From Aequorivita vitellina (lineage in GTDB: Bacteria; Bacteroidota; Bacteroidia; Flavobacteriales; Flavobacteriaceae): 64,000 nucleotides of DNA. The stretch covers positions 1 through 64,000 of the forward strand of contig NZ_JAIRBA010000014.1 in NCBI RefSeq assembly GCF_022008365.1, given 5' to 3'. Below the pieces are notes generated by a model. That model ran no database searches and had not been told where the DNA came from. It saw only the letters and a program-made list of their open reading frames with translations. Positions 6,528-20,596 of the stretch are shown one piece after another. The first letter of the stretch is position 1. Every line of letters starts with the position of its first letter. The translations under genes were made by a program, and so were the position numbers.

Positions 6528-8945
6528 GTGGCCTTAAAAAAATACATACAAAAACGGAAGTTTAACGATACGCCAGAACCTCGAGCCGAACTGGATAACG
6601 AGAACGGCATGCGGTTTGTAATACAGCGCCACCAAGCGCGTAGATTGCACTACGACCTGCGTTTGGAAATGGAAGGAGTGCTTAAAAGCTGGGCAATACC
6701 AAAAGGACCGTCGATGAATCCGGCAGAAAAACGATTGGCAATTATGACCGAGGATCATCCAGTTAAATATCTAACGTTTAAAGGCGTTATCCCAAAAGGC
6801 AACTACGGGGCAGGGGAGATGGATATTTGGGATAGCGGAACTTACAGTATTGCCGCTAACAAATCTGATGCCGACCCGCTGGAACAGTTGCACAACGGGG
6901 ATTTAAAAATTGAATTCTTCGGAAATAAGATAAAAGGTAAATTCGCACTCGTCCACACCAAAAGAGGGACCGCTAAAAATCAATGGCTTCTTATTAAAAA
7001 AAAGGATGCATATGCAACTACCAGTGATTACGATGCCGAGACGTTTGCTTCTTTCGTTAATAAATCGCAATCCCAACAATCCTTTGACATACATAAATTT
7101 GTAAGCCCGATGCTTGCCAGTCCGGCGAAAAAGATTTTTAAAGACCCCGATTGGGTATTTGAGTTAAAATGGGATGGGTATAGAATGCTGGCGAATATAT
7201 ACAACCAGCAAGTAACGCTTTATTCGCGAAACGGAATTTCGTATAACAGCAAATTCGCTTTGCTTAAAAAAGATTTGGAACGTATTCCCCACAATTGTAT
7301 CCTCGACGGCGAAGTGGTTATTTTAGATAAAGACGGGAAGCCAAACTTCCAAAAACTTCAAAATTACAAGTCGGAAAAAAGTGAAGGCGAACTGCGGTAT
7401 TACGTTTTTGATATACTTCACCTAAACGGTCACGATACTATTTCGCTTTCTTTAATAGAGCGAAAAAGCTTCTTGCCCGAAATTTTAGAAGATTTAGAAT
7501 ACGTGCGTTTTTGCGATCATATTGAAGGTATGGGACCAACACTTTACAATCGTGCAATAGCCGACGGAATGGAAGGGGTAATTGCCAAAAAAGCCGATTC
7601 TACCTATGCTCCCGGCTACAGAAGTGAAAAATGGTTAAAAATAAAAAAAACCGCGACGGCGGAAGCTATAATTTGCGGCTACACAGAGTCTGAAAGTGGC
7701 GGCTCCCTTTTTGGCTCTCTAATTTTAGGAATGTATCAAGAAGAAAAATTGCAATATGTGGGCAATTGTGGCTCGGGTTTTTCCAATGCAGAGCAGAAGA
7801 AATTGTTGCAAAAAATGCAAGCCTTACAAACCGAAGAAAATCCTTTTGAAGGTAAACTGCCCTTAAAAGGAAGAATTCCACATTACATAACACCCAAATT
7901 AATATGTGAGGTAAAATTTTCAGAATGGACCAAAAATGGACGTATGCGACATCCCATTTACAAAGGTCTGCGCCACGATAAAAATATAACTGAAATAAAC
8001 AAACAACCCACGAAAACACAGGCTTCCGCACAAACGAAAAACCCCACTTCGGGATTGGAAATTAACGGGGTAACGGTTCCGCTTTCAAATTTGGTAAAAG
8101 TTTATTGGCCCGATGCCGGATATACCAAATACGATCTTATAGACTATTATTTAAATATTTCAGAAACAATCTTGCCGTATTTAGTAGATAGACCTCAAAA
8201 CTTACATAGGCATCCCAATGGGATTTTAAAACCTTCGTTTTATCAAAAAGACAACGAAACGCCTCCAGACTGGGTAGAAACAGTAAATATTTACTCGGAA
8301 TCTTCTAAAAAGGAAATAGCCTATTTGCTTTGCCAAAACGATGCAACCTTGCTATATATGGCTAATTTGGGATGCATTGAAATCAATCCGTGGAATGCCA
8401 CAATTCAAAACTTGGAACAGCCTACATATACGGTTATAGACATAGATCCTTCTAATAAAAACACTTTTGAAGAAGTAATTGAAGTTGCACAAGCTGTAAA
8501 AGAAGTGTTGCAATTGGCAAACATAGACGGCTATCCCAAAACTTCGGGTTCTTCTGGCTTGCATATTTATATTCCCTTGGGTGCCAAATACAGTTTTGAG
8601 CACGCCCGCGACTTTGCAAAACTGCTGTGTTATTATGTACACGAACGCCTGCCAAAACTCACTACTATGGAGCGCGCCTTAAATAAACGCGATGGAAAAA
8701 TATACTTAGATTACCTACAAAACCGCCGCGGACAAACATTAGCGGCGCCGTATTGCGTACGACCAAAAAAAGGAGCTTCGGTTTCTGCTCCGCTTTCGTG
8801 GAGTGAAGTTGTTCCGGGTTTGGCAATCCTAGATTTTACAATTAAAACCATGCCCGCCCGAATTGCAAAAACTGGCGATATATTTAGCCCAGTATTAGTA
8901 AAAGGGATAGATATGGAGGCGGCAATAAATGCGTTAAACGCTTAA
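6528..8945 (+). CDS. ligD: Multifunctional DNA ligase D
   Basis: LigD processes, fills and seals DNA ends with Ku. The 805 residues carry three domains in the order phosphoesterase, ligase, polymerase. The N-terminal 3'-phosphoesterase (about 20-160) shows H35, H41, D43 and H77. The ATP-dependent ligase (about 190-490) has the adenylated lysine K214 in FELKWDGYR and a second conserved motif, MEGVIAKK. The primase-type polymerase (about 510-805) has the metal-binding D638-I-D640 and RGQTLAAPYCVRP. The only sensible start is GTG at 6528, two bases after ku. This PE-Lig-Pol order is the one seen in many Bacteroidota. Confidence 0.97.
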   Translation: MALKKYIQKRKFNDTPEPRAELDNENGMRFVIQRHQARRLHYDLRLEMEGVLKSWAIPKGPSMNPAEKRLAIMTEDHPVKYLTFKGVIPKGNYGAGEMDIWDSGTYSIAANKSDADPLEQLHNGDLKIEFFGNKIKGKFALVHTKRGTAKNQWLLIKKKDAYATTSDYDAETFASFVNKSQSQQSFDIHKFVSPMLASPAKKIFKDPDWVFELKWDGYRMLANIYNQQVTLYSRNGISYNSKFALLKKDLERIPHNCILDGEVVILDKDGKPNFQKLQNYKSEKSEGELRYYVFDILHLNGHDTISLSLIERKSFLPEILEDLEYVRFCDHIEGMGPTLYNRAIADGMEGVIAKKADSTYAPGYRSEKWLKIKKTATAEAIICGYTESESGGSLFGSLILGMYQEEKLQYVGNCGSGFSNAEQKKLLQKMQALQTEENPFEGKLPLKGRIPHYITPKLICEVKFSEWTKNGRMRHPIYKGLRHDKNITEINKQPTKTQASAQTKNPTSGLEINGVTVPLSNLVKVYWPDAGYTKYDLIDYYLNISETILPYLVDRPQNLHRHPNGILKPSFYQKDNETPPDWVETVNIYSESSKKEIAYLLCQNDATLLYMANLGCIEINPWNATIQNLEQPTYTVIDIDPSNKNTFEEVIEVAQAVKEVLQLANIDGYPKTSGSSGLHIYIPLGAKYSFEHARDFAKLLCYYVHERLPKLTTMERALNKRDGKIYLDYLQNRRGQTLAAPYCVRPKKGASVSAPLSWSEVVPGLAILDFTIKTMPARIAKTGDIFSPVLVKGIDMEAAINALNA

Positions 8946-9016
8946 ATTGAATGTACCCGTTAAACCCCATTAACTGTTTCTTAAAGTTTTAGTTTCTTCG
9001 AGAAACTCCAGCGGAA

Positions 9017-9154
9017 TTATTTCTTTTCCTCAACCCCCTTATTCGGTCGTTTTGGCAAGTCGCGCTCCTTCTTAGTATCTTCCGGGTCTTTTTCGACTTC
9101 CCCATATTGATTGTGATCGCGTTTTTTATCGAAACCATTAGTTGTGTCTCCCAT
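9017..9154 (-). CDS. Small hydrophilic protein (45 aa)
   Basis: Hand translation of the minus strand gives a 45-residue protein. It starts MGDTTNGFDKKRDHNQYGEV and ends in a Lys/Glu/Pro-rich tail. It has almost no hydrophobic residues, so it should be soluble and probably disordered. Tiny charged proteins of this kind are common next to stress genes in flavobacteria. It is convergent with ligD and sits 71 bases from the ligD stop. The intact frame and clear ATG support a real gene. The function is unknown. Confidence 0.6.
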   Translation of the reverse strand: MGDTTNGFDKKRDHNQYGEVEKDPEDTKKERDLPKRPNKGVEEKK

Positions 9155-9302
9155 AATATTGTTTTCTTTTAAATTAAATTTCTTTTTGAATGTATTAATC
9201 GCAGCAACTGCTTAAAATTAAATGAATATTCGTTAAAAGATAAAACAATTAATTCAACTTTAAATTACTATTAAGTGGAATTTAACAGCTACTTTCCACG
9301 CC

Positions 9303-9566
9303 TTATTTAGGCCGTTTATAAAGAATTAGCATCACAAGCATTGATATATTTAATAAAAATGAAATGCCATTAAACAAAATAATGGGGATGTCATTTTTTA
9401 AAATTCCATACACCGTCCACAATCCAACTCCTAAGATTAAGATAGTAAACATAACCGGCGATATGTCGGCAATTTTTTTGGTTTTCCAAGATTTAATGAT
9501 TTGGGGAAGAACCGCAATGGTCGTCAAAATTCCAGATAAATACCCTATAAGCTGTTCTATATCCAT
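9303..9566 (-). CDS. SemiSWEET sugar transporter
   Basis: SemiSWEETs are three-helix proteins that dimerise into a sugar uniporter. This one has three membrane helices and the PQ-loop signature LPQIIKSWKTKK in the first. ISPVMFTILILGVGLWTVYG makes up the second and a hydrophobic third segment ends in KRPK. I chose the ATG at 9566 (MDIEQLIGYL), which gives 87 residues, the normal family size. An upstream in-frame ATG at 9587 would add seven polar residues. The substrate is not evident. Confidence 0.88.
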   Translation of the reverse strand: MDIEQLIGYLSGILTTIAVLPQIIKSWKTKKIADISPVMFTILILGVGLWTVYGILKNDIPIILFNGISFLLNISMLVMLILYKRPK

Positions 9567-9587
9567 GGTTTCCTTTTGTATCTCCAT

Positions 9588-9907
9588 TTTTCGGCAGAGA
9601 TTCTAAAAATATATTTTTTACAATTACAGCAATCTTAATTAATTCATATTTAACAATGTTTCAGTAAATGATTGAAAAGAAATCGTTGTACATAAAGATT
9701 CTGAATCATTCGCCGCAAATTCAATAATCGCATTTTTCAATTAAAAAATACTATAAATTCACCGTTGTTGTATGTATTAACAAATGAATAACAAGCCTAC
9801 GTTGTTAATTTTCTACTAAATTAAAAAATCGCCTTTTCATTTTTACTAATTTAACATTGGTTTTAAAGAACCCAGTTTTTAGTTCAATGTCTTAAAACGA
9901 AATTGAA
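9588..9907. other. AT-rich intergenic region
   Basis: These 320 bases separate the divergent SemiSWEET and half-SBP genes. I see no gene, strong hairpin or good TAnnTTTG promoter. Confidence 0.4.
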
Positions 9908-10414
9908 ATGCTAACACACCAAATTAAGAGTACAACTTGTAAGGAAAAATCGGCCGTATTATGGAGGAATAAAATATTTGAAATCCTTCGGCCTTGCCTG
10001 CTTTTACTAATTCTATCTATTTTTTTGAGTTGCGATTTTCCAAAAGATCCCAGCAACACCTACAATGATGCACGTGCCAATGGAATGAAAGTAGGCGTAG
10101 TAAACAATCCTCCGTTTACCAATACAACTAAGGACACCGTTTCAGGAAGAGAGATGCAAATTATAGCTGCTTTCGCGAAGCAAAATAATATAGCTATTGA
10201 GTATGTGGTCGCTTCAGAAACCAATTTAATAAATCTTTTAAAAAATAGAAAGATTCAAATTGTAATTGGAGGATTTACCAAAAAAACGGTCTGGAAAAAA
10301 CACGCTGGCCTAACGGCTGCATATGACGGTACCCACGTATTTCTAGTCCCAAAAGGAGAAAATAGGTTGGTCTTTAAATTGGAAACGTATTTTAATAAAA
10401 ACTTAAAGCAATGA
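9908..10414 (+). CDS. Half-length solute-binding lipoprotein (SBP family 3-like)
   Basis: The 168 residues carry a long N-terminus, then a hydrophobic stretch ending in a lipobox-like LSCDF near residues 42-46, so lipid anchoring is likely. The mature part resembles lobe I of family-3 solute-binding proteins: MKVGVVNNPPFTN, then SGREMQIIAAFAKQNNI and LLKNRKIQIVIGGFTKK. The second lobe and the hinge are missing, because a typical SBP is about 250 residues. No ABC permease or ATPase is nearby. The stop overlaps the start of the CDF transporter by four bases (ATGA), implying translational coupling. It may be a sensor or accessory of that transporter, which is an inference. Confidence 0.75.
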   Translation: MLTHQIKSTTCKEKSAVLWRNKIFEILRPCLLLLILSIFLSCDFPKDPSNTYNDARANGMKVGVVNNPPFTNTTKDTVSGREMQIIAAFAKQNNIAIEYVVASETNLINLLKNRKIQIVIGGFTKKTVWKKHAGLTAAYDGTHVFLVPKGENRLVFKLETYFNKNLKQ

Positions 10415-11358
10415 TTTTATCTAAAAGTTTTGAATTGCCTAATAGCTTGCGACAAGTGATGAAGGACGCTAAAAAACTAGAGTGGATAACCTTGGCGTAC
10501 ATGCTTTCCGTAATAGTGATTATGTTTTTGGTAATGGGCTCGTCGCAGGCGATGAAGACGGCTTGGTTAGAGGATGCGCTAAGTACATTGCCCGCCATAG
10601 CTTTTCTTGTTGCTACAAAAATATACGATAAACCTGCTACCAAAAAATATCCGTATGGATACCATAAAGTGTTTGGCATTTCCTTTTTAACAGGATCTGT
10701 TGCCTTGTTTGGAATGGGTTCGTATCTGGCGATTGATTCAATAATCTCACTCCTTGAAAAAAATAGACCCACTATAGGCACCATCGTTATTTTTAAACAT
10801 ACAATCTGGATGGGCTGGATTATGATTTTGGCGCTAATTTATAGCGCCTTGCCGGCAATGTGGTTGGGGTATAAAAAATTACCCCTCGCAAAAAAACTTC
10901 ACAATAAAATATTACATACCGATGCAACCACCCAAAAAGCCGATTATATGACGGCCTTTGCCGCTATTGTTGGTATTCTCGGCATTGGTATTGGTCTATG
11001 GTGGATGGATGCGGCGGCGGCAATTTTTATATCGGTTTCGGTTATTAAAGATGGGTTTTCTAATCTAAAAAGTGCAATTGCCGATTTAATGGAAAGAAGA
11101 CCGCAGGATGTAAATAACGAAGAACCAGATCCCTTAATTCAAGAAATCAGTGATAAAGTTAGCGCTTGGCCGTGGGTAAAAGACGTGCGGGTACGTTTCA
11201 GAGAACACGGGCAAGTGTATTTTGGAGAGATTTACATAATCCCAAAAACTTTAGAAAATGCAGAAAATTTACTAACTGCAGGAAAGAAAGAAATAGAGAG
11301 TTACCATTGGAAAATTTTTGATGTAACCCTTACCCTCGTAAAAAAAATTGAAACGTAA
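10411..11358 (+). CDS. Cation diffusion facilitator family transporter
   Basis: The 315-residue protein has six predicted helices and a C-terminal cytoplasmic domain (about 235-315), the CDF layout. The segment KKYPYGYHKVFGISFLTGS occupies the place of the family motif that follows helix 2. TDATTQKADYMTAFAAI corresponds to the helix-5 metal-site motif. The usual HxxxD spacing is altered there, so ion choice may differ from zinc-type members. Its start overlaps the stop of the half-SBP lipoprotein. The family exports divalent metals in exchange for protons. The substrate here is not determinable. Confidence 0.88.
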   Translation: MILSKSFELPNSLRQVMKDAKKLEWITLAYMLSVIVIMFLVMGSSQAMKTAWLEDALSTLPAIAFLVATKIYDKPATKKYPYGYHKVFGISFLTGSVALFGMGSYLAIDSIISLLEKNRPTIGTIVIFKHTIWMGWIMILALIYSALPAMWLGYKKLPLAKKLHNKILHTDATTQKADYMTAFAAIVGILGIGIGLWWMDAAAAIFISVSVIKDGFSNLKSAIADLMERRPQDVNNEEPDPLIQEISDKVSAWPWVKDVRVRFREHGQVYFGEIYIIPKTLENAENLLTAGKKEIESYHWKIFDVTLTLVKKIET

Positions 11359-11376
11359 TTTAAACTATGATAGAAA

Positions 11377-12225
11377 ATGAAGAAAGATGAAAAAATACCC
11401 AATCAATCGCAATCTCAACCGGGAAAGCAGTCTAAAATGCATCCGAAGCCCGAAATAATTAGAAAGAATTACAAAGGCAGTGAAAAGCTGAAAGGAAAAA
11501 TAGCTTTGATAACAGGCGGAGATAGTGGCATAGGAAGAAGCGTAGCAGTACACTTTGCACGCGAAGGAGCCAAGATTGCAATTGTATATTTAGAGGAAAA
11601 TAAAGATGCAAAAACAACAAAAAAACTCGTAGAAGCTGAAGGCAGTAAATGTATAATTATAGCCGGTGATTTAAAAGATGCTGATTTCTGCAAAAAAGCG
11701 GTTTCGCAGTGTGTAAGCGAATTTGGCGGACTAAATATTGTGGTAAATAACGCCGCTATGCAATTTGCGAAAGATAGTTTTTCAGAAATAGATGACGCGC
11801 AACTTACAGAAACTTTTGAAACAAATATCTATTCCTATTTTAGGATTACGCGCGCAGCCTTAAATCATTTAAATGAAGGCGATTGCATAATCAATACCAG
11901 TTCTGTAACGGCATACCGTGGTAGCGACCATTTAATTGACTACTCGAGTACCAAAGGAGCCATTGTAAGTTTTACACGTTCGTTGTCTAAAAACCTAGCA
12001 TCAAAAAAAATACGGGTAAACGGAATCGCTCCCGGACCAATCTGGACCCCCTTAATTCCTGCGACCCTAAATAACGTATCCGATTTTGGACGAGACACCC
12101 CTCTGGGACGTCCAGGGCAACCAAGTGAATTGGGACCGGCCTACGTTTTTTTAGCCTGCGAAGATAGCAGTTACGTTACCGGTCAATTTATTCACGTGAA
12201 TGGGGGGGAAGTGGTAGGAGGATAA
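11377..12225 (+). CDS. SDR family oxidoreductase (general-stress type)
   Basis: The 282 residues hold a classical short-chain dehydrogenase. It has the NAD(P) motif GGDSGIGRS near 48-56, NNAA near 123-126, the catalytic Ser in NTSSVT and the active-site motif YSSTK. An extra hydrophilic N-terminal extension of about 40 residues (rich in Gln, Lys and Pro) precedes the Rossmann fold. The same extension occurs in the YhdG/YdaD-type stress SDRs of Bacillus and Bacteroidota. It sits 18 bases after the CDF gene, so the three genes 9908-12225 are probably one operon. The substrate is unknown. Confidence 0.92.
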   Translation: MKKDEKIPNQSQSQPGKQSKMHPKPEIIRKNYKGSEKLKGKIALITGGDSGIGRSVAVHFAREGAKIAIVYLEENKDAKTTKKLVEAEGSKCIIIAGDLKDADFCKKAVSQCVSEFGGLNIVVNNAAMQFAKDSFSEIDDAQLTETFETNIYSYFRITRAALNHLNEGDCIINTSSVTAYRGSDHLIDYSSTKGAIVSFTRSLSKNLASKKIRVNGIAPGPIWTPLIPATLNNVSDFGRDTPLGRPGQPSELGPAYVFLACEDSSYVTGQFIHVNGGEVVGG

Positions 12226-12267
12226 GTAGTAGTTTAGTTTTTACTTTTTTAGGGTTAAAACTTTTTT

Positions 12268-13203
12268 CTATTTTACTTCTGTTACTACAAAAAATCCGTC
12301 GTTACCTTGTTTTTGATATAGTGGCATAAAGATAAATGCATTCCAGTCGCTATAAATGGGTTGCCCGTTTTGATGAGCCAATAGCTCGCCTTTTTTAATG
12401 GGTTGAAAATTGCTATAGCCGGGTTCCATTTCAAAGTCATCATCGGTGCTTAAACCGTGGCGGTAGCATATTTCAAATGTTTTTTGGTTTTGCTTCTTTT
12501 CTAAAAGCAGTGCTGCAGCTTCGGGGTATTCTTGAAGCTGATTTAAATTGAGTTCGCAAGCATTGTGCAAGGCTAACCAAATAATTCCTTCGTGATTCAT
12601 TTCGGAAGATTTGTCTTGGTGCTGTCCTCCTTCAAATACAAATCCTGTAATTCCTATTCGGCTTTCATAATGATCAATACAGCCCAATACGATATCAGAA
12701 AAACCGCGTATAATATAAGTTGGGAATTTATGCGCCCAAGCATCATTGTCATTTACCTCTTGCACTGAAATATAGGGGTCGCTGGCGGCCGAAGTAGTGT
12801 GACAATCCAGAAAATAGCGTTCGCTATATTGCGCTTCAGAAAACTGATTGAGCGTTTCAATAATCTCAAACATTTCTTTCTTTTCGTGACTGTCAATGTT
12901 TTCACTCGCAATGTTTTCTTTAGTCCAAGTGCGATTTAAATCTTCATCGATAAAACGCACTCCTTTTTGCAATGCTTTTTTATTTCCCGAAACTCCAACC
13001 ACCTTGCCTTTAATTTCGGGAGTTTCTTTATTTAGCGTTTTAAACACCTGCTGTAAAGCTATAATTCCACTAGGTTCATTGCCGTGAATGCCAGCAGTAA
13101 TAAATAACAACGGACCTTCTTTACCGCTGCTGTATTCTCCTATTACACGTGGTATGTTTTTCAATGCTTTTTCGTCTATATCTTTTTTAGCTGTACTTTT
13201 CAT
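12268..13203 (-). CDS. M14/AstE-AspA-like zinc deacylase or peptidase
   Basis: This 311-residue protein belongs to the succinylglutamate desuccinylase / aspartoacylase group of M14 metallo-hydrolases. Zinc ligands are visible as H40 and E43 in AGIHGNEPSG and H135 in LDCHTTSA. DLNRTW (88-93) is the substrate-carboxylate-binding segment. E191 in FVFEGG is the catalytic glutamate. The C-terminal part (about 240-311) looks like the small beta domain of AstE proteins. It is the last gene of a three-gene operon, starting one base after the stop of the ATP-grasp ligase. Its natural substrate is unknown. The context suggests hydrolysis of an amide made by that ligase. Confidence 0.88.
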   Translation of the reverse strand: MKSTAKKDIDEKALKNIPRVIGEYSSGKEGPLLFITAGIHGNEPSGIIALQQVFKTLNKETPEIKGKVVGVSGNKKALQKGVRFIDEDLNRTWTKENIASENIDSHEKKEMFEIIETLNQFSEAQYSERYFLDCHTTSAASDPYISVQEVNDNDAWAHKFPTYIIRGFSDIVLGCIDHYESRIGITGFVFEGGQHQDKSSEMNHEGIIWLALHNACELNLNQLQEYPEAAALLLEKKQNQKTFEICYRHGLSTDDDFEMEPGYSNFQPIKKGELLAHQNGQPIYSDWNAFIFMPLYQKQGNDGFFVVTEVK

Positions 13204-13204
13204 T

Positions 13205-14257
13205 TTACTCCATTGTTGCTAACTCTTTGTTCGTTAGGCTGTTTTTATAATATTTTTTGTATTCTATTTTGCGTTCAATTGCTTCCACAACAGTATCGGT
13301 AAAGGCGGGGAGTTTAATTTTTTCGCAGTAATCTAATCCTCCCGGACTCAACACATTAATTTCAATTAGTTTGTCGTTAACTATGTCCAGTCCAACGAAG
13401 AAAAGTCCATCTCTAATTAATTTTGGAGCTGTTAGTGAAACAATGCGTTCTATGGCTGGGGTTAGCTTGGCTTTCTTTGCTTTTGCACCCAGTGATAAAT
13501 TACTTCTAAACTCTGTGTTATCACTATTTACGCGTCTAATAATAGCTTTTTCGCCATCTTCCTCCAGAATTTTGCCATTTAATAAAATAACCCGAACATC
13601 ACCTTTGCTAACCTCCGGAAGAAATTCCTGGGCTATTATATATCCTTTGGCACTAATGGTTTCCACTATTTGATTGAGATTCTTTTTATCTTCATCTATT
13701 AAATATACGTCTTGGCCGCCAGAACCTTCCAAAGGCTTTAACACCATCTTTTTACCAACCTTTTCCCAGAATTTCAAGATGTCTTGCATATTGCGGGTTA
13801 TTAAACTATCGGGTTTAATTTCGGCGGGTAATTCTTCAAAATAAAGCTTATCGATAAAGGCGTGGCTCATTGCAAAGGCGTCGTTTAAAACCAAAACCCC
13901 ACTTTGCTGAATCATTCGGGCAAAGGCAATGCCGCTGTGTTCGGCCCAATGTCTATCTGAAGTTTCTTCGGTTGGATTGTTTCGTAAAAAAACTACATCC
14001 ATACTCGTACTGGGTACGGCTTTGGTCTTTACTTTATCGTCCTGTACCTGTTTCCAAAATTCTTCAACCGTTTCGCCTTTTATTGTAGATGGAATCCTTT
14101 TACAGCGAAGGCTTATATTTTTATCACGATTGAAAATAAAATCGCCCACACTCATTACATAAACATCATGGCCACGTTCGTGAGCCTTTTTCAATATTAC
14201 AACCGTCGTTCCACAAGCTTCGGTTTTTATGTCGCTAATTACAAAACATATCTTCAT
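13205..14257 (-). CDS. GshB-like ATP-grasp ligase
   Basis: An ATP-dependent carboxylate-amine ligase of 350 residues. The N-terminal pre-ATP-grasp domain (about 1-125) contains FLRNNP, comparable to the substrate-binding region of glutathione synthetase GshB. The ATP-grasp core has the nucleotide lysine and flexible loop VLKPLEGSGGQDV (172-184), GDVRVILLNGK (219-229) and the metal and acceptor motif GLD..LIEINVLSPGG (289-307), which closely follows the GshB signature. No gshA is present, and this lineage encodes bshA, so ordinary glutathione synthesis is unlikely. It sits between the DUF1704 and M14-like genes with gaps of 2 and 1 bases. The substrate is unknown. Confidence 0.88.
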   Translation of the reverse strand: MKICFVISDIKTEACGTTVVILKKAHERGHDVYVMSVGDFIFNRDKNISLRCKRIPSTIKGETVEEFWKQVQDDKVKTKAVPSTSMDVVFLRNNPTEETSDRHWAEHSGIAFARMIQQSGVLVLNDAFAMSHAFIDKLYFEELPAEIKPDSLITRNMQDILKFWEKVGKKMVLKPLEGSGGQDVYLIDEDKKNLNQIVETISAKGYIIAQEFLPEVSKGDVRVILLNGKILEEDGEKAIIRRVNSDNTEFRSNLSLGAKAKKAKLTPAIERIVSLTAPKLIRDGLFFVGLDIVNDKLIEINVLSPGGLDYCEKIKLPAFTDTVVEAIERKIEYKKYYKNSLTNKELATME

Positions 14258-14259
14258 TA

Positions 14260-16095
14260 TTATATTAGTTTAGATAGGGAGATTCCCTGTTTAAGTTTAT
14301 TTATACGTTCTTTAAAATCTTTTTGCTGTAAATATCTAGGCTTTAAATGGGGTGGCTGCAATAATCCACGGGCAGTGAGATCGTTGATCATTGGCACGTG
14401 TTTTAATGCAAATTTTCCAGCCAGTAAAAACTCCAGATCGCCACCGGCTATTAGGTAATCGCGAAGATGAACTAAGCCTTTTAAATAAATGATATCTTTT
14501 AAAAAACCGCCTCCCTGAAACATTCTAGAGGTAATATTAAAAGCTCTTTCTTTTGAAAATTTGTGCGTGTTATACAGTAGGTGAAAAACAGTTTTAAAAT
14601 CTGCATTGTCCATAAGGGCGGCACCTGCCAAAACGCGTCCGGCAAGAAGACGCAAACGGTTAGCGGAAAGCCCACCAATTAAATACTCCGAAAGTACGGC
14701 TATGCCTTCTTGCAAGGTGTCGTAATCTGCAAAGCCAACACTCAACTGACTCAACGGTTGTTGCGACCCGTTAAAGTGGGTGAGGACGTGGGTGCCTATC
14801 TCGTGCTGAATTAAAGCTTGTGCCTCTTTATGTGTTAAGGTGTAGTCTGCTGGTAAATAAAGCTCGCCGTTGCTCACCATCATTACATTTACGTCTTTTC
14901 GTATATGTACTTTACATTGAAAATTAGAATCCTGTTGCCTTAAAAATTTAAACTCTTTTGAAGCCATGTCGGCAAACGCTTTGGCATGCAATACTTTTGA
15001 ATTATCGTCTTGGGTATCTTCAGGAATATTTTGAAGAATTAATTCGGCTTCGGTTAAAATATTTTTTTGAAGTCCTTTATATAATCTTACGCTACTGTAG
15101 AAAAAGTTTTTAGATCCGCGCTCCTTTAACATGGTTAATTGTTGGTCTAATTCTTCCCGTTTTTCATGAAAGAGGTGGGAGAGGGCAGGGTCGTCTATTT
15201 GATCAATTTCAAGGTTGTAGAGTTTTCGTTTTAAAATATCGGGATCTACGGGTAGCAGACGGTAATGATATTCTTCTAAATTTTTAAAATTGCTTTCAAA
15301 AAACCGTTTCCGCAAGCTTTGAATGTTCACAGGCGCCACTAATAACAAAAACTGATAGCTGTTTTCAATTTGGGTAAGCGCGCGATCAATTTTAAAAACT
15401 TCTTTGTGTATTTCGCGTTTTCCCAAGGCGTAATAACTGGCCAAATTGCTGGACGTTTGAACACGGATAAATTCAAAAACAGATTTCTGAATGGCTTCCG
15501 CAACACTTTCTTGAAACTGTCTAAAGTAAACAGGAAATACTTCGCCCTCGGCATCGCGATAAACGGGAGGTATTTCCAAACCAATTAAAGTTCCGCCACA
15601 GTCTTTAATTTTTGCAATACTCATTAAGGCAGCTTCCGATTCTTGTTGGCGTTGTTTGGTTTGTTCTATAGTAGCTGTTAGCTGCACGCCGTACGTTCTG
15701 CTTTTTACTTTTTCAAGCGCTTCCCGAAGTACTTCTAATGATACTGGCAGTTTGTGCGATGGCCCACGGATAACAAATTGGGTACTATCTTCAGCCCCGC
15801 TATATATTTCCATTAAAAAAAAGCTGCCAAAACGAGCGCTCATCTTTTTGGTAAGTTGCTTTATAAATTCTTGAAAATACTCAAAATGATCTGCGCCTAT
15901 TATTAAATAACTCGCGCCGGTACGCGCGAGGCGCATTGTTGCTTTATCATTGGGCCTATTTCGGTAAACAAGTAAAAAAGGAACGTCGTGCTCCAAGAAC
16001 AGATACCCGCCATAGGGAAGACTTTTAACCGTTCGTTGACCTGCTTCAAGTTCGCCAATTAATACTTCTTTTTCCGTAGTCGACGTCGCTTTCAT
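14260..16095 (-). CDS. DUF1704 (MATCAP-like) metallopeptidase
   Basis: A 611-residue protein of the family annotated as flavohemoglobin expression-modulating QEGLA motif protein. The C-terminal half contains a zincin-type HExxxH motif, H431-E432-I-G-T-H436. LQEGIAVLSE (461-470), about 25 residues later, is the QEGLA motif, and its glutamate is the likely third zinc ligand. The N-terminal 350 residues are helical and without recognisable motif. No signal peptide is visible, so the protein is cytosolic. The eukaryotic members (MATCAP/KIAA0895) remove the C-terminal tyrosine of tubulin. The bacterial substrate is unknown to me. It is the first gene of the operon with the ATP-grasp and M14-like genes. 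Confidence 0.88.
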   Translation of the reverse strand: MKATSTTEKEVLIGELEAGQRTVKSLPYGGYLFLEHDVPFLLVYRNRPNDKATMRLARTGASYLIIGADHFEYFQEFIKQLTKKMSARFGSFFLMEIYSGAEDSTQFVIRGPSHKLPVSLEVLREALEKVKSRTYGVQLTATIEQTKQRQQESEAALMSIAKIKDCGGTLIGLEIPPVYRDAEGEVFPVYFRQFQESVAEAIQKSVFEFIRVQTSSNLASYYALGKREIHKEVFKIDRALTQIENSYQFLLLVAPVNIQSLRKRFFESNFKNLEEYHYRLLPVDPDILKRKLYNLEIDQIDDPALSHLFHEKREELDQQLTMLKERGSKNFFYSSVRLYKGLQKNILTEAELILQNIPEDTQDDNSKVLHAKAFADMASKEFKFLRQQDSNFQCKVHIRKDVNVMMVSNGELYLPADYTLTHKEAQALIQHEIGTHVLTHFNGSQQPLSQLSVGFADYDTLQEGIAVLSEYLIGGLSANRLRLLAGRVLAGAALMDNADFKTVFHLLYNTHKFSKERAFNITSRMFQGGGFLKDIIYLKGLVHLRDYLIAGGDLEFLLAGKFALKHVPMINDLTARGLLQPPHLKPRYLQQKDFKERINKLKQGISLSKLI

Positions 16096-16448
16096 TATAC
16101 CTGTTTTCTGAGCTTTTTTTATTTGATTAGGTAATATAAAAAATATGCCAGTGCAGACTAATTGGTTTAATTATTATTTAACAGGGCTTTGGGAGGGTTT
16201 TATAAGTAAGGGCTAAAATAGATTTAAATAAAGGTCCAGCATCGTAAATTCGGCGGAATACATAATTAGCTTTTACAGCTATAAAAGCTTTTTTTCGGAT
16301 TTCGAAATCGTATTTAAATTGCATAAAAATGCCTATGAATTTTTTTTTCTAAAATTTATTAACTATCATTATTATTGAATATTTTCGCCGAAGTTATAAT
16401 TTGTATATAAGCAACTTATAAAAGCACAATTTTTAAAAACACAATAAT
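16096..16448. other. Divergent intergenic region with terminator-like hairpin
   Basis: These 353 bases lie between the DUF1704 operon and the secreted protein at 16449. No gene is evident. The hairpin at 16268-16297 is listed separately. TATAAT occurs just before the secreted-protein gene, but no strict TAnnTTTG box was found on either strand. Confidence 0.4.
16268..16297 (+). terminator. Terminator-like hairpin in a divergent region
   Basis: AGCTTTTA (16268-16275) pairs perfectly with TAAAAGCT (16282-16289) across a 6-base loop and is followed by a run of T. This is an intrinsic-terminator shape on the + strand, although no + strand gene lies directly upstream. It might end a small RNA or act as a leader element of the 16449 gene. 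Confidence 0.4.
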
Positions 16449-17258
16449 ATGAAACATATACTTACTTTTTTTATTATGGTTTTTTTTATCTCTGGATCTG
16501 CCCAAGTAGGGATAGGAACAGTTGACCCCAAAAGCGATTTACATATAGTTAAAACCGCTGATAATGATGGAGGAAGTATACAAATTGATGGCGGAATACG
16601 TTTAGGAGGTACTGAAACAACTCAAGGTTCCAAGGGAAAAGCTGGTCAAGTTATAATGAGTAATGGTACAACTGCGGGTTGGGTAACTTTGGGGAAAGCT
16701 GAAGGATATATTACTAACTGTGATGTCCCTAATAAAGTAGCATTTATTGACATTAATCTTCCAAACGGAAGTCCTTGGAATGAATATAATGTTTCCAGTG
16801 CTCAAATGACAACTGCACTTAACAGCTTAACCGACGGAGGTATTGTCGCATTGAGAACGAATTCAATTGTTACATATACTTCGGGACATACTAGATTGAC
16901 TATAACACTTCCAAAGACAACCGATGTTTTAAACAAACCATTCGTAATAACGTTTGATGGTCCTAGTGGTTCTAATAATTTACTAGGCCATAATTCTATA
17001 ATTCGTATTATAGTAAAACCTAATGCTAACGAGCCAAATTCTTTAATTTATGAATTAGGAGGAAATTTTATAAGTCGCACTATTACAATTGAGAGCTATC
17101 CATCTAACAATGAAGACTATAAGGTTTCTGACCTAGACAATGATTCTGGAAGTACTCAGCCCATTCTTTTATTTAACTCTTATACAATTAAAGCCATTAA
17201 TACCAAAACTTGGGCATTTACAAATCGTGATTGTTATGTGCAAAATCCGACGCAATAA
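16449..17258 (+). CDS. Secreted protein with QVGIGT leader motif
   Basis: A 269-residue protein with a signal peptide (about 1-19, ending GSAQ). It is immediately followed by VGIGTVDPKSDLHI, the motif that opens many secreted or cell-surface proteins of Bacteroidota and usually precedes adhesin-like or tail-fibre-like repeats. The next part (about 50-80) reads like the typical linker ending in GWVTLG. The C-terminal 180 residues look beta-rich and match no domain I recognise. No C-terminal type IX sorting domain is obvious. It is a single gene flanked by long non-coding stretches. The function is unknown. Confidence 0.8.
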   Translation: MKHILTFFIMVFFISGSAQVGIGTVDPKSDLHIVKTADNDGGSIQIDGGIRLGGTETTQGSKGKAGQVIMSNGTTAGWVTLGKAEGYITNCDVPNKVAFIDINLPNGSPWNEYNVSSAQMTTALNSLTDGGIVALRTNSIVTYTSGHTRLTITLPKTTDVLNKPFVITFDGPSGSNNLLGHNSIIRIIVKPNANEPNSLIYELGGNFISRTITIESYPSNNEDYKVSDLDNDSGSTQPILLFNSYTIKAINTKTWAFTNRDCYVQNPTQ

Positions 17259-17332
17259 GGTAATTTATATTTTTAATTTTATTCAAGTCGTTTAAGGATA
17301 ATATTATTAGTACAACAAGAGAAATGCGATGA

Positions 17333-17349
17333 CGATATTTATAATATCG
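17333..17349. repeat. Small AT-rich hairpin
   Basis: CGATATT-TAT-AATATCG is a perfect 7-bp stem. It lies 75 bases after the secreted-protein stop in a 248-base convergent gap that otherwise shows nothing. It has no T-run, so it is only a weak terminator candidate. Confidence 0.35.
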
Positions 17350-17506
17350 CTAAATAATGCAAAAACGTGGCTAATGACTATATTTAAAAAAGTCATTTCG
17401 TGTCCTATAATTTATATTATGTAAAATAGAATAATAGTAAAGCTACTTATCCCACTACCCAGTTTACCACATTATATAGACTATAAACATACTTTCTTAA
17501 TTACTT

Positions 17507-17731
17507 CTATTTCACTAAATCATAACTCTTGATAAAAATAGCTGCGTCGCAAACATATTTCTCGCCGTTTACACCTACCATTAACCAATCCCCGGGTTTT
17601 CCCTTCATTGTGCCTTCTAAGGTTTCCACTTCAAAAGCTTCGTTTATTTGAACACATTTTACAGGAATCGGTTTTTTAATTGCTTTTTTAAAATTCAGCT
17701 TTGGCGTTTCCTTTTGAGTAAATTTCAGCAT
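17507..17731 (-). CDS. PGDYG-domain-like small protein
   Basis: A 74-residue protein ending in KPGDWLMVGVNGEKYVCDAA and FIKSY. This corresponds to the PGDYG-type domain: a Pro-Gly-Asp-aromatic turn followed by a conserved strand and an IFxxSY end. The family is widespread, and I know of no established biochemical role. The N-terminal 25 residues are basic. No signal peptide or membrane helix is present. It lies 49 bases from the start side of the FNT channel gene's stop, on the same strand. Confidence 0.75.
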   Translation of the reverse strand: MLKFTQKETPKLNFKKAIKKPIPVKCVQINEAFEVETLEGTMKGKPGDWLMVGVNGEKYVCDAAIFIKSYDLVK

Positions 17732-17780
17732 ATAAAAAAATTTTCAGTCTAATAACAATAAAATAAAGCCTTAAATATAT

Positions 17781-18641
17781 CTATCCCTTAACATCATAAA
17801 CAAAGGCGCGATATTTCAGTAAAGCGACAAAAATAGCACCGCCTATGGCATTTCCTAAAAGTGCCAAAAGAATAAAATAAAGATAATCTACAAATGTTAT
17901 CGCTGGCGAACTTATCCACCCCGCAAAAACTTCTACATTACCCACAATACTGTGATGCAGACCAGTAAAAGCTAATACCGCGGTAATAATAAATATTAAA
18001 ACAATTCTACTAAACGTACTTTTTGAAGCAGCTATTAACCAAGATAGTAAACCCATTAACCAACCCGCTAAAATGGCACTTGTAAAAATGACGATATTGT
18101 TGTAATCAATAACATGAACGGCTATTTTTTCGACCGTTTCAAGATCGAATATCCGCATACGCGGACCTATCCAAACCAGTACAAAAGCAATAAGGTAACC
18201 GCCTATTAAATTCCCGAGAATAACGAGTCCCCAAAGGTTTAACAAGCTCCCAAAGCTTCTTTTTTTGTTGAGTACAGGAAGAGTAAGCAACGAGGTTTGC
18301 TCCGTAAATAATATAGACTGCCCTAAAATTATCATGATAAAACCTACTGGATAGACTATTGCCAGCGATTTTAAAATTGTGTCCTCTTCTACTTTTCCGT
18401 GAAGAAAGAAATACAACGCACAAATTAGCAAATAACTAAAACCAATCTCCAACCCCGCTGTAAGTGAACTAAGCAGAATACTTAACGCACTTTTATCATA
18501 AGTTTCCTGCCCATCTATTATTTGCTGTTTAAGTATTTCGCCATGCGATTTTGCATTTGTCAACTCAGACGACTTTGAGTTTTTTAACTCTTCGTCAATA
18601 TTTTGTTGCTCTTCAGATTTACTCGTTTTAGATTCTGACAT
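17781..18641 (-). CDS. Formate/nitrite transporter family channel
   Basis: A 286-residue membrane protein with a hydrophilic N-terminus (about 1-55, rich in Ser, Lys and Glu) followed by six hydrophobic helices. The pattern, including GWLMGLLSWLIAASKSTFSR after a helix and HHSIVGNVEVFAG before the next, is the FNT fold with its half-helices and pore histidine. FNT proteins conduct small monovalent anions such as formate, nitrite or hydrosulfide. I start at the ATG at 18641 because the only longer option uses a TTG. The long acidic-basic N-terminus resembles stress-associated FNT members. The ion is undetermined. Confidence 0.9.
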   Translation of the reverse strand: MSESKTSKSEEQQNIDEELKNSKSSELTNAKSHGEILKQQIIDGQETYDKSALSILLSSLTAGLEIGFSYLLICALYFFLHGKVEEDTILKSLAIVYPVGFIMIILGQSILFTEQTSLLTLPVLNKKRSFGSLLNLWGLVILGNLIGGYLIAFVLVWIGPRMRIFDLETVEKIAVHVIDYNNIVIFTSAILAGWLMGLLSWLIAASKSTFSRIVLIFIITAVLAFTGLHHSIVGNVEVFAGWISSPAITFVDYLYFILLALLGNAIGGAIFVALLKYRAFVYDVKG

Positions 18642-18702
18642 ACGGAGATGATTGCGCAACTATAAAAATCGGCTTTTTTTAGGAATTTAAGTTTCTTCTG
18701 AA

Positions 18703-18888
18703 TTAATTTTTTTTTAAAGCATCCAAAATCTTTTCCTTGTCTGAATTTGATTTCATAGCATCATCCTTTTCCACTTTTAATTCGCCATCGCCCTTAATTT
18801 TTAAATTTTCTTCCTGTTGCAGCTTTCCAAAATTTGACGATTTTCGGTATTCATCTTGAAAATCTGCGTGTTTCTTTTTCTTGGTCAT
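18703..18888 (-). CDS. Small highly charged protein (61 aa)
   Basis: A 61-residue, Lys-, Asp- and Glu-rich protein starting MTKKKKHADFQDEYRKSSNF. It has no hydrophobic core or motif, so it is probably disordered. It lies only 6 bases after the stop of the nitroreductase gene on the same strand, so the two are likely co-transcribed. Its composition resembles small stress-related hydrophilic proteins, but no function can be assigned. Confidence 0.65.
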   Translation of the reverse strand: MTKKKKHADFQDEYRKSSNFGKLQQEENLKIKGDGELKVEKDDAMKSNSDKEKILDALKKN

Positions 18889-18894
18889 AATTTG

Positions 18895-19500
18895 TTATTT
18901 TTTAAAGTTTCCATTAAAGGTAAATTCTTCTTGTTTTTTCCGACTTCGCATTGTTTCTAGCTCTTGTTTTTTAAGATCTTCGGGCAAATCGTCAGGATTG
19001 CCGCCATAATATCCAAAGGCCACGGCGGTTGCCACGTGGTAATCATCAGTGAAATTAAACTCTTCTTGCGCTTTTTTAAAATTTAAACCTGCCATTTGGT
19101 GTACTGCAATCCCCATACTATTGGCTTGGTGAATTACATTCCCCATAAAAAGACCTAAGTCGTGCAGGGCGTGAAAATTTTCTTTGTTATTGGTATTCAT
19201 CGTTTTTTTATAGGCGTTAATCCACAATAACTGTGAGTTGGCTGCCCAACTTTTATTAAACTCGTCTAAACAATTAAATATACGTGTGTACATTTCGGTA
19301 CCCTTCGTACCCCAAATAATACGCCATGGCTGAATGTTTGATGAACTTGGCGCCCACCGACCAGCTTCAAATAAGGTTTTTACATCTTCTTCTTTTATAG
19401 GTGTATTGGCAAAATTACGCGGACTCCATCTGTTTTTTATACTGTCTAAAATAGGATGTTCTACAGGGGTTTTTTTATTTACAGATATCATGTTTTTCAT
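18895..19500 (-). CDS. Nitroreductase family protein
   Basis: A 201-residue FMN-dependent NAD(P)H oxidoreductase of the nitroreductase family. The N-terminal FMN-binding motif is KNRWSPRNFANTPI, followed by EAGRWAPSSSNIQPWRII, which together bind the FMN phosphate and isoalloxazine. AVAFGYYGG near the C-terminus is the second conserved FMN segment. These enzymes act as homodimers in the cytosol on quinones, nitro compounds or flavins. The natural substrate is unknown. An alternative ATG lies three codons into the protein. It heads a short minus-strand run with the 61-residue charged protein. Confidence 0.93.
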   Translation of the reverse strand: MKNMISVNKKTPVEHPILDSIKNRWSPRNFANTPIKEEDVKTLFEAGRWAPSSSNIQPWRIIWGTKGTEMYTRIFNCLDEFNKSWAANSQLLWINAYKKTMNTNNKENFHALHDLGLFMGNVIHQANSMGIAVHQMAGLNFKKAQEEFNFTDDYHVATAVAFGYYGGNPDDLPEDLKKQELETMRSRKKQEEFTFNGNFKK

Positions 19501-19613
19501 ATTTTTCTTTTAAATGTAATGGCTTTAGGCTGGCTTAAAAAGAATTTAAAAAAGTTTTAACGCTCACCGCCATTATTAACATTTCCATATAATTTTTAGA
19601 ATTACTTTCCACT

Positions 19614-19621
19614 TAGTTTTG
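19614..19621 (+). promoter_or_regulatory. -7 box of terC
   Basis: TAGTTTTG is a perfect TAnnTTTG match, 15 bases before the ATG at 19637. It overlaps the upstream in-frame TTG at 19619, which argues that translation starts at 19637. No TTG is found at the -33 spacing. Confidence 0.4.
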
Positions 19622-19636
19622 TGTAAATTTTACTTT

Positions 19637-20596
19637 ATGTTGGTCTGGGGAATCTTTATTGGTTTTATCATTTTATTCTTAGCGTTAGATTTGGGTGTGT
19701 TTAATCGCACTCCCCATATTATTAAAACCAAAGAAGCTGCAATCTGGACCAGTATCTGGGTTACTTTGGCATTGGCCTTTTCTGGGGTTATTTACTGGCT
19801 TTTTAAAGAAGGCTTAGTTGAAAACCCAACCAATTTGGCGCCAGATGCCGCTATGCTAAAATACATAACCGGCTATTTAATAGAGCTATCGTTGAGCATT
19901 GACAACGTATTTGTTATTGCAGTAATTTTTTCATCCTTCGCCATTCCACAGAAATACCAACACGAAGTTTTATTTTACGGAATATTGGGAGCCATTGTTT
20001 TTAGGGCGTTAATGATCTTTTTTGGAGTTGCCCTTATCAATAAATTTGATTGGATAATCTATGTCTTTGGCGCATTTTTATTGTTTACCGCCTTTAGAAT
20101 GTTATTTCATAAAGAGACTGAATTTGATCCCAAAAAGTCGAAAATGTTTCGATTTATGAAAAAACTCTTTCCTGTTAGTTACAAAATGGATGGCGATAAA
20201 TTTTTTATAAAGCGAATGGGAATCCGTGCTGCCACCCCCCTATTTGTAGCTTTAATAATAATTGAGCTCACCGATATCCTTTTTGCACTAGATAGTATTC
20301 CGGCAATTTTGGCCATTACTGCAGATCCGTTTATTGTTTTCAGCTCAAACATTTTAGCCATTTTAGGCCTGCGCTCAATGTATTTTTTAATCTCTAGAAT
20401 GCTTACTAAATTTAGATTTATAAACTACAGTTTGGTTGTTATTTTGGCCTTCGTGGGTGTAAAAATGATACTCGCCCATAATGTTGAAATCCCCGAATGG
20501 CTGTCACTGGGCGTAATTGGTTTATCGTTAGCTGCTGGTATAATTGCATCTATTGTAATTACAGACCCCAACGCTGCTGTTTTGGAAGAGGACTAA
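19637..20596 (+). CDS. TerC family membrane protein
   Basis: A 319-residue integral membrane protein with about nine helices. The start MLVWGIFIGFIILFLALDLG is the standard TerC N-terminus. The acidic motifs LSLSIDNVFVIAVIFSSF and IELTDILFALDSIPAILAI, each with an Asp inside a helix, are the family signature and probable metal-binding sites. TerC proteins are linked to tellurite resistance and manganese efflux. I chose the ATG at 19637 because it matches the family start exactly and because a -7 box overlaps the upstream TTG. It is monocistronic, with HPF downstream under its own promoter. Confidence 0.94.
   Translation: MLVWGIFIGFIILFLALDLGVFNRTPHIIKTKEAAIWTSIWVTLALAFSGVIYWLFKEGLVENPTNLAPDAAMLKYITGYLIELSLSIDNVFVIAVIFSSFAIPQKYQHEVLFYGILGAIVFRALMIFFGVALINKFDWIIYVFGAFLLFTAFRMLFHKETEFDPKKSKMFRFMKKLFPVSYKMDGDKFFIKRMGIRAATPLFVALIIIELTDILFALDSIPAILAITADPFIVFSSNILAILGLRSMYFLISRMLTKFRFINYSLVVILAFVGVKMILAHNVEIPEWLSLGVIGLSLAAGIIASIVITDPNAAVLEED

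Follow-up and report, generated by a model that had tools for sequence, protein, structure and literature searches.

A conserved bacterial operon of a MATCAP-type metallopeptidase, a GshB-like ATP-grasp ligase and an exchangeable amidohydrolase as a possible make-and-break module

A 64,000-nucleotide stretch of the genome of the marine bacterium Aequorivita vitellina (contig NZ_JAIRBA010000014.1, positions 1 to 64,000; the window) encodes a metallopeptidase, an ATP-grasp ligase and an M14 hydrolase in direct succession, raising the question of what a ligase and two hydrolases do together in one operon. The trio consists of three complete minus-strand genes without internal stops and with intergenic gaps of 2 and 1 nt (Table 1), the arrangement given in a preliminary description of this DNA. 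The residues named there, H431, E432, H436 and the QEGIA motif of the metallopeptidase as well as H40, E43, H135 and E191 of the M14 protein, were all in place in the translations.

Table 1 Features of the operon in the A. vitellina window.
Feature	Position	Strand	Evidence
Long-form MATCAP/DUF1704 metallopeptidase, 611 aa, operon gene 1	14260..16095	-	Pfam MATCAP 279 bits; AlphaFold model pLDDT 87.5
N-terminal degenerate FGase-like domain, ~residues 7-213 of long MATCAP	15457..16077	-	hhalign; without FGase motifs
MATCAP catalytic domain, residues 263-600	14296..15309	-	Pfam MATCAP
HEIGTH motif (H431, E432, H436)	14788..14805	-	aligned to human MATCAP counterpart
QEGIA motif, residues 462-466, with E463	14698..14712	-	aligned to human EEGLA
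GshB-like ATP-grasp ligase, 350 aa, operon gene 2	13205..14257	-	Pfam GSH-S_ATP, GSH-S_N, RimK
AstE/AspA-type M14 hydrolase, 311 aa, operon gene 3	12268..13203	-	AstE_AspA_cat 67.8 bits

In the 149 Flavobacteriaceae genomes sampled, each of the 24 long-form MATCAP genes had a top-tier ligase match no more than 3 kb away and vice versa, and each of the 17 top-tier M14 matches sat inside a trio. For the best 80 of 444 ligase relatives, the order MATCAP-ligase-M14 was found on one strand in 78 loci, including two in which a frame break interrupts one of the genes (L095, L118); the other two (L100, L128) are truncated by contig ends. This linkage is far beyond chance and establishes the trio as a real conserved module, contradicting the rare co-occurrence that the preliminary description had named as grounds for giving up the idea. 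Three unrelated genes sharing one transcription unit are therefore extremely improbable, as the linkage persists with changing flanks and two of the activities also occur fused (FGase-MATCAP, where FGase denotes the N-formylglutamate-amidohydrolase-like family). Bacterial MATCAP (DUF1704/QEGLA) as such was present in 77 of the 149 sampled genomes and on 124 plasmid records, most of them from rhizobia. No recognised amidohydrolase lay alongside in 5 of the 24 long-MATCAP/ligase loci, no ligase or MATCAP was annotated within 8 kb of the Bernardetia M14 gene, and no MATCAP or FGase within 8 kb of a ligase homologue on an Ensifer plasmid.

The metallopeptidase belongs to the Pfam MATCAP family (PF08014; E = 5.6e-83, 279.3 bits, cut-off 27), its score of 314.3 bits for the QEGLA hypothetical equivalog TIGR02421 falling below the cut-off of 338.65. 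H431, E432, H436 and E463 were invariant in 79/79 relatives. The AlphaFold model fitted human MATCAP (7z5g) with a TMt of 0.72 in Foldseek; 3u24, a putative lipoprotein, was also matched in the MATCAP fold search (E = 4.2e-4). The HEIGTH motif aligned with the same motif in human MATCAP, where its Glu is E281, and E463 with the second Glu of the human EEGLA motif, E316 (both numbers counted here). The E316A mutation inactivates TMCP1, according to the accessible text of PMC10499314. In this alignment, the bacterial enzyme retains the residues required for tubulin carboxypeptidase activity.

The amino terminus of the long MATCAP gave no Pfam FGase (PF05013) match, its homology emerging from profile comparison. 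Against 14 FGase sequences we obtained an hhalign probability of 90.5 (E = 1.3e-6), and 95.5 (E = 1.5e-8) with a profile from 33 long amino termini; the score was 50.5, compared to 21.4 for the best of 60 column-shuffled controls. A relationship of this domain to the ligase or the M14 protein was rejected, the scores of 17.2 and 20.6 lying inside the shuffled range. Of the motifs derived from the 14 FGases themselves, SRxExDxNR and DxHSYN were found in 0/80 long amino termini, and HxGH (or HxGG) gave regular-expression matches in 4/80; FGase structures were absent among the 50 Foldseek matches listed for the full-length model. Thus, the region is not an FGase by its motifs, and profile comparison identifies it as a degenerate FGase domain.

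The ligase matched the Pfam families GSH-S_ATP (2.1e-47) and GSH-S_N (2.4e-9), and reached 402.7 bits over its full length for the NF009110/PRK12458 subfamily, whose curated cut-off is 408. Its AlphaFold model (pLDDT 86.7) had GshB as best PDB match (1gsa; TMt 0.83, 26% identity), followed by RimK and LysX/ArgX among the 50 matches listed. The glutathione synthetase equivalogs were missed by 116 bits (TIGR01380, 182.9 versus 299.05) and 74 bits (PRK05246, 197.8 versus 272). The absence of a gshA partner, already claimed in the preliminary description, extended to both Pfam families: PF04262 occurred in 0/149 Flavobacteriaceae genomes, A. vitellina included, and PF04107 was absent from the A. 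vitellina genome (197 contigs, 99.8% complete), the only one searched for it. Because there is no gshA, ordinary glutathione synthesis by the ligase is unlikely, and we rejected an ordinary GshB on the missed cut-offs together with the lacking gshA families. The same two observations speak against a thiol or other gamma-glutamyl-type peptide, where the ligase would make a glutathione-like tripeptide and the hydrolases would recycle it. The closeness to GshB would suit such a product, as would rhodanese genes in 5 of 11 loci with a short MATCAP form and BshC near five long-MATCAP loci; these BshC genes, however, are in convergent orientation and could simply reflect synteny, neither rhodanese nor BshC lies beside the window trio, and the A. 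vitellina BshC is on another contig. Overall, we regard a thiol peptide as very doubtful.

The third protein carries the AstE/AspA catalytic domain (PF24827; residues 30-145, E = 1.2e-18, 67.8 bits, cut-off 25), with H40, E43, R83, N90, R91, H135 and E191 invariant in 77/77 relatives. It stayed far under the equivalog cut-offs for succinylglutamate desuccinylase (58.1 versus 305.65 bits) and aspartoacylase (58.8 versus 180 bits). The AstE/AspA subfamily is known to strip N-acyl groups off acidic amino acids, not to trim C-termini; AstE, AspA and FGase act on N-acyl Glu/Asp, the characterised enzymes using free N-acyl amino acids. In the alignment, the M14 protein has residues equivalent to the Zn set of aspartoacylase and to its substrate-binding R63, N70 and R71 (residue list from the accessible text of PMC10998430). 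The 13 PDB sequences matched at E <= 0.001 comprised only AstE (succinylglutamate desuccinylases) and aspartoacylases, and on this sequence comparison a CCP-type deglutamylase was rejected. The tubulin parallel drawn in the preliminary description for all three folds hence holds for the metallopeptidase, which shares the family of human MATCAP, but neither for the ligase, with no TTL among its 50 listed PDB matches, nor for the M14 protein.

The amidohydrolase of the module is swappable, FGase taking the place of M14. The set FGase-MATCAP-ligase is annotated on Shinella and Mesorhizobium plasmids, FGase-MATCAP is annotated on S. meliloti pSymB, where we located the ligase by tblastn, and FGase also replaces M14 in Bacteroidota loci (L160-L163). 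The short MATCAP form is accompanied by FGase and a different GshB-like ligase, and in 8 of 10 such loci the retrieved stretch also contains a Na+:dicarboxylate symporter gene. The ligase clade covaries with the type of partner: four labels required 4 changes on the tree, whereas shuffling gave a mean of 20.1. Motif-intact FGase-MATCAP fusions exist as well: one adjoins a GshB-like ligase in Photobacterium (L139), and in another beside such a ligase (L159) the MATCAP match lies in a 668-residue frame with FGase similarity and motifs. The FGases match their family only distantly (Pfam E 1.8e-10 to 3e-24), and therefore N-formylglutamate need not be the substrate.

Nothing beyond the trio was common to the loci, whose flanks differ between genera. 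The largest neighbour cluster (32/81 loci; clusters partly annotated) reflects clade synteny, and a fourth conserved partner was rejected, as was a carrier or RiPP precursor peptide encoded alongside: the small-ORF cluster seen most often covered only 17/80 loci and overlies a tRNA-Arg, present in 12 of the 14 scanned loci having this cluster. Stress-type neighbours, seen both in the window and in L164, would fit a catabolic salvage under osmotic or general stress: MATCAP and M14 would degrade an N-acyl peptide, part of which the ligase would turn back into a peptide for storage or use as a compatible solute. In Photobacterium damselae, low salt raises adjacent GshB and QEGLA locus tags 38- and 27.5-fold according to the accessible part of PMC10308900, a pair assigned to this family only by inference from the related Photobacterium locus. 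The trio, however, includes no transporter, the window's nearby transporter genes (cation efflux, formate/nitrite, solute-binding protein) are not tied to it, and the variable flanks likewise argue against salvage, which we consider improbable.

We tentatively favour, with somewhat less than even confidence, a cycle that makes and breaks a short compound held together by an amide bond; the likeliest such compound is a small N-acylated peptide with an acidic amino acid. The ligase would take an N-acyl amino acid or peptide as acceptor, activate its free carboxylate with ATP and join this to an amino acid through the latter's amine, MATCAP would act as metallocarboxypeptidase taking the ligated C-terminal residue off again, and M14 would hydrolyse the N-acyl amide to a free amino acid. 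The long MATCAP may go back to an FGase-MATCAP fusion in which the amidohydrolase half degenerated, the lost activity being made good by a separate FGase or, in the window lineage, by M14. The conserved linkage, the amidohydrolase swap with its clade/partner covariation, the fusions, the N-acyl Glu/Asp chemistry of AstE, AspA and FGase, the retained MATCAP and M14 residues, the dicarboxylate symporter and the lack of a linked carrier or precursor peptide are consistent with this cycle. Against it stand the loci without an amidohydrolase, the remoteness of the FGase matches, the Foldseek listing without FGase and the absence of further common genes. The MATCAP substrates known to us are proteins. 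Without regulation, moreover, a ligase and hydrolases sharing an operon would form a futile cycle.

A rather unlikely alternative is a protein-tail writer and eraser: by analogy to RimK/RimB on ribosomal protein S6 (RpsF), the ligase would add an amino acid to a protein C-terminus, MATCAP would remove it, and M14 or FGase would trim or deacylate the tail. MATCAP shares its Pfam family with a tubulin detyrosinase/deglutamylase, RimK follows GshB among the listed structural relatives of the ligase, and RimK/RimB is a documented ligase/peptidase pair in the accessible texts of PMC11957791 and PMC12239564. Yet the ligase is closer to GshB than to RimK among these matches, the characterised relatives of the amidohydrolases use free N-acyl amino acids, and the loci share no linked gene for a target or carrier. 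The FGase swap and the FGase-MATCAP fusions speak for a small N-acylated peptide no less strongly than for a protein tail. Of the amino-acid ligation and trimming module proposed in the preliminary description, a ligase with counteracting hydrolases stays the best reading, with RimK/RimB as precedent and the tubulin parallel weakened.

Iyer et al. reportedly described ATP-grasp/peptidase neighbourhoods in 2009 and may already list some of this kind. In the accessible open-access literature, mentions of DUF1704, QEGLA or TIGR02421 were sparse and gave no function for the bacterial enzyme, and nothing joined DUF1704 or N-formylglutamate amidohydrolase with ATP-grasp. The accessible part of a chytrid list of horizontal transfers names a glutathione synthetase and a succinylglutamate desuccinylase, by those names (PMC5005798). 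It is conceivable, if unlikely, that the trio represents an undescribed, horizontally spread bacterial amino-acid tail cycle of GshB-like ligase, MATCAP carboxypeptidase and swappable N-acyl amidohydrolase, that the animal and alveolate tubulin detyrosinases were recruited from its carboxypeptidase, and that the dead FGase domain was kept for substrate binding or regulation. Linkage, swap and fusion narrow an 'unknown peptidase' to a defined chemistry, and would caution against the name 'glutathione synthetase' given to such ligases in several plasmid records.

Compared with known systems, the ligase has E. coli GshB as nearest solved structure, differing in the missed equivalog cut-offs and the genome without gshA families. 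The M14 protein shares family, Zn ligands and the Arg/Asn/Arg cluster with AstE/aspartoacylase and differs in equivalog scores and operon context. RimK/RimB (and Rlo) likewise combine an ATP-grasp protein and a peptidase in one operon, and RimBK fusions exist; RimB and RloA, however, are retropepsin-like aspartic peptidases in the accessible texts (PMC11957791, PMC12239564), whereas by Pfam the trio hydrolases are MATCAP and M14 (or FGase), neither being retropepsin-like, and the ligase is nearer to GshB. The mammalian NAAG cycle of NAAG synthetase I/II, glutamate carboxypeptidase II (GCPII) and ASPA, as given in the accessible text of PMC10998430, has the three types of activity proposed for the trio, with MATCAP in the place of the carboxypeptidase; that carboxypeptidase is of another family and the NAAG genes form no operon, so that the likeness would be one of functional analogy only. 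With the MATCAP/TMCP tubulin carboxypeptidases (KIAA0895L, KIAA0895; PF08014), the metallopeptidase shares catalytic family, fold, HExxxH, the third-ligand Glu and other aligned residues at ~18% identity, whereas the bacterial long form has a degenerate FGase-like domain and ligase and amidohydrolase partners, and no tubulin substrate is implied. The tubulin detyrosinase family would thereby gain a bacterial biochemical context.

The three genes form a real enzyme module with a swappable hydrolase, and they include an unusual protein in which MATCAP (PF08014, the family of QEGLA/DUF1704 proteins) follows an apparent remnant of an N-formylglutamate-amidohydrolase-like protein (FGase, PF05013). 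The window sequence contains the three minus-strand genes as the preliminary description had claimed, separated by 2 and 1 nt, and all named residues are in place. Comparison with the best-matching NCBIfam models left every protein below cut-off, as MATCAP scored 314 bits against QEGLA (cut-off 339), the ligase 183 and 198 bits against two GshB models (299 and 272, respectively) and 402.7 bits against subfamily NF009110 (408), and the M14 hydrolase 58 bits against AstE (306) and 59 against aspartoacylase (180). Of 11 named relatives with 81–91% ligase identity, nine came from Aequorivita. In the other sampled genome of this genus (G027), MATCAP and M14 matches were lacking and those of the ligase were weak, indicating that the trio is accessory.

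Features of the trio and two of its neighbours in the window
Feature	Position	Strand	Length (aa)	Assignment
MATCAP	14260-16095	minus	611	Pfam PF08014
ATP-grasp ligase	13205-14257	minus	350	Pfam GSH-S_ATP + GSH-S_N + RimK
M14 hydrolase	12268-13203	minus	311	Pfam AstE_AspA_cat
DNA ligase D	6528-8945			stress-type neighbour of trio
SDR	11377-12225			stress-type neighbour of trio

The residues tested were highly conserved: all 12 of MATCAP were invariant in 79/79 relatives, 18 of 19 in the ligase in 85/85 (the remaining one in 84/85), and 10 of 12 in the M14 hydrolase in 77/77 (the other two in 73/77 and 76/77). The rhizobial long MATCAPs L136, L137 and L138 carry HE(V/I)GVH in place of HExxTH. 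Stress-related-looking genes surround the trio (window 6528-20980), also comprising a formate/nitrite transporter, TerC and an S30AE ribosome-hibernation-type protein; a similar SDR lies near the trio of L164, along with a weak YflT match below cut-off. Elsewhere in the window's genome, two tandem RimK-like ATP-grasp stretches (G000:C124:22509-24406) are matched weakly by the ligase profile.

Linkage was assessed in 149 Flavobacteriaceae genomes, where we found 88 MATCAP genes: 24 of the long form seen in the window (22 genomes; frames of about 610–650 aa) and 64 of a short form (64 genomes; mostly about 385–390 aa, one ending at a contig edge), with both forms co-occurring in nine genomes. 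Matches to the ligase profile separated into clear score tiers, the lowest of which comprises at least the matches listed. Every one of the 24 top-tier ligases had a long MATCAP within 3 kb, the reciprocal holding for all 24 long MATCAPs, and all 17 top-tier M14 matches lay inside a trio, so that the proposed conservation of the three-gene operon withstood the neighbourhood check. A second M14 AstE/AspA-like family, with frames mostly of about 400 aa, occurs away from the trio in many Flavobacteriaceae (47 second-tier matches listed). Sorted by amidohydrolase, the 24 long loci comprised 17 with M14, two with FGase (L022, L025) and five with none recognised beside them (L023, L026, L027, L029, L030); the genomes carrying these five loci each also encode a short MATCAP that has a separate ligase close by. 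Their partnerless MATCAP-ligase pairs are flanked by guaA and bshC (bacillithiol synthase) homologues, which could reflect synteny or hint at thiol metabolism.

Named genomes yielded 444 ligase relatives, and of the best 80 of these, 78 kept the order MATCAP-ligase-M14, contig ends cutting both exceptions (L100, L128); as this set is skewed to near kin, the 149-genome sample provides the fairer count. Among the carriers of the trio is the marine flavobacterium Leeuwenhoekiella blandensis MED217 (L087). The flanks vary by genus, with the most frequent neighbour cluster present at 32/81 loci and no small-ORF cluster above 17/80. Ligases were paired in tandem in six of the eight Salinimicrobium loci, and the arrangement MATCAP-ligase-ligase-M14 was observed in L122, L129, L130, L133, L134 and L135. 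The tandem copies fell into separate tree groups in the two loci tested, which suggests two specificities. Scans of 14 loci located a tRNA-Arg (TCT), a possible insertion site, upstream of the trio in 12 of them (L100, L103, L110, L119, L121-L124, L127, L129, L130, L132).

The short MATCAP pairs with another GshB-like ligase, a second-tier match lying within 6 kb in 58/64 cases. Ten of 11 such loci examined (L045-L055) combined ligase, FGase and short MATCAP, L050 having a symporter and MATCAP alone; a rhodanese was present in 5/11 and a Na+:dicarboxylate symporter in 9/11 of these stretches. Pfam identified FGase, rhodanese and symporter at some of the loci, and at the others they were assigned from similarity to those.

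FGase also accompanies MATCAP on plasmids. The annotated order in Shinella and Mesorhizobium is FGase-MATCAP-ligase; on S. meliloti pSymB, a ligase detected via tblastn adjoins the annotated FGase and MATCAP. These plasmid proteins share about 39% (ligase) and 31% (MATCAP) identity with those of the window. Public plasmid records, including L136 and L137, name these ligases 'glutathione synthetase/synthase' despite their membership of the MATCAP module. In the Bacteroidota sample, MATCAP occurred in 18/345 genomes, and we examined ten loci (L158-L167), including the high-GC L165, the genes of which were not resolved by the gene caller. Four loci outside Flavobacteriaceae (L160-L163) carry FGase-MATCAP-ligase. 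L164 has MATCAP-ligase with an adjoining M14 on the opposite strand, and L158 MATCAP on its own; within Flavobacteriaceae, L166 has the M14 trio and L167 both ligase types, FGase and a long MATCAP. Fusions join the two partners directly: L159 encodes a 668-residue frame with a MATCAP match and an FGase-like N-terminus with intact motifs, and Photobacterium sp. DA100 a single 662-residue protein consisting of FGase (39-214) and MATCAP (326-659), a ligase adjoining each.

In a midpoint-rooted ligase tree of 45 rows, for which the program warned of long branches meeting at L161 and two rhizobial rows, 22 M14-linked ligases formed one group (support 91/91, not starred), whereas FGase-linked and five partnerless ligases formed the other (98/95), with the M14-linked L164 at its base. 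Partner type, coded with four labels, required 4 changes versus a shuffled mean of 20.1. Together, these loci and the tree indicate that M14 and FGase are alternative occupants of one place in the module, each in lineages of its own.

The N-terminal 250 residues of the long MATCAP gave no match to any Pfam family. By profile comparison with 14 FGases, residues 7-212 aligned over nearly the full FGase length (probability 90.5, E 1.3e-6), scoring 50.5 compared to at most 21.4 for 60 column-shuffled controls, 11.7 for the reversed profile, and 17.2 and 20.6 for the ligase and M14 control profiles, respectively. N-termini from nine other long loci alone (eight FGase-flanked and L164) gave a probability of 86.6 (E 4.5e-6), and 33 N-termini combined 95.5 (E 1.5e-8). 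Two FGase motifs, present by construction in 14/14 FGases, were found in 0/80 long-MATCAP N-termini, and from these profiles we interpret the N-terminus as a dead FGase. Foldseek with the full MATCAP model returned M14 carboxypeptidases, the poly-glutamate hydrolase 5onj, amidases and nucleoside phosphorylases at E 0.01–0.08, weak matches that would be compatible with the FGase fold class; no FGase structure was among the 50 matches listed.

Searches of the open-access literature found two papers that mention DUF1704, QEGLA or TIGR02421 and no paper joining DUF1704, or N-formylglutamate amidohydrolase, with ATP-grasp, and as far as could be searched the module is apparently undescribed. Iyer et al. 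2009 reportedly treated ATP-grasp/peptidase neighbourhoods and may already note part of it. In P. damselae, genes with adjacent tags annotated GshB and QEGLA are reported to be up 38- and 27.5-fold at low salt, GshB being read by the authors as glutathione synthetase (PMC10308900). Judging from a related Photobacterium locus, this pair may belong to the same family, and its induction would then offer a hint at the role of the trio.

The ligase model (pLDDT 86.7) best matched the ADP- and glutathione-bound GshB structure 1gsa (TMt 0.83, 26% identity), followed by RimK, ArgX/LysX and graspetide ligases. The MATCAP model matched 7z5g (TMt 0.72), its E432 and E463 aligning with E281 and E316 of TMCP1 (numbered by our own count), both described as essential (PMC10499314). 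For the M14 hydrolase, nearest to AstE and aspartoacylase (ASPA), the alignment placed ASPA H21, E24, R63, N70, R71 and H116 (listed in PMC10998430; chain numbering assumed) at H40, E43, R83, N90, R91 and H135. Only its position and conservation link ASPA E178 to E191, and R168 and Y288 were not placed.

Established activities of the characterised enzymes are the coupling of an amine to a peptide or amino-acid carboxylate by related ATP-grasp ligases, the removal of C-terminal residues by MATCAP enzymes, and the cleavage of N-acyl groups from acidic amino acids by AstE, AspA and FGase. The type of chemistry is fairly well constrained, and putting these activities together, the simplest and most likely system would be one where the ligase makes a small N-acyl peptide and the hydrolases dismantle it from both ends. 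Alternatively, the trio may edit protein tails in the manner of RimK and RimB, where RimB cleaves off glutamates attached by RimK; hybrids of RimB and RimK also occur (PMC11957791, PMC12239564). Glutathione itself is an unlikely product: as had been claimed, gshA is missing, with PF04262 in 0/149 Flavobacteriaceae genomes and PF04107 absent from the window's genome, the only one searched for it, and BshC is present in that genome. The favoured cycle of a small N-acyl peptide, built and then broken from both ends, would resemble the mammalian NAAG cycle of NAAG synthetase, glutamate carboxypeptidase II and aspartoacylase.
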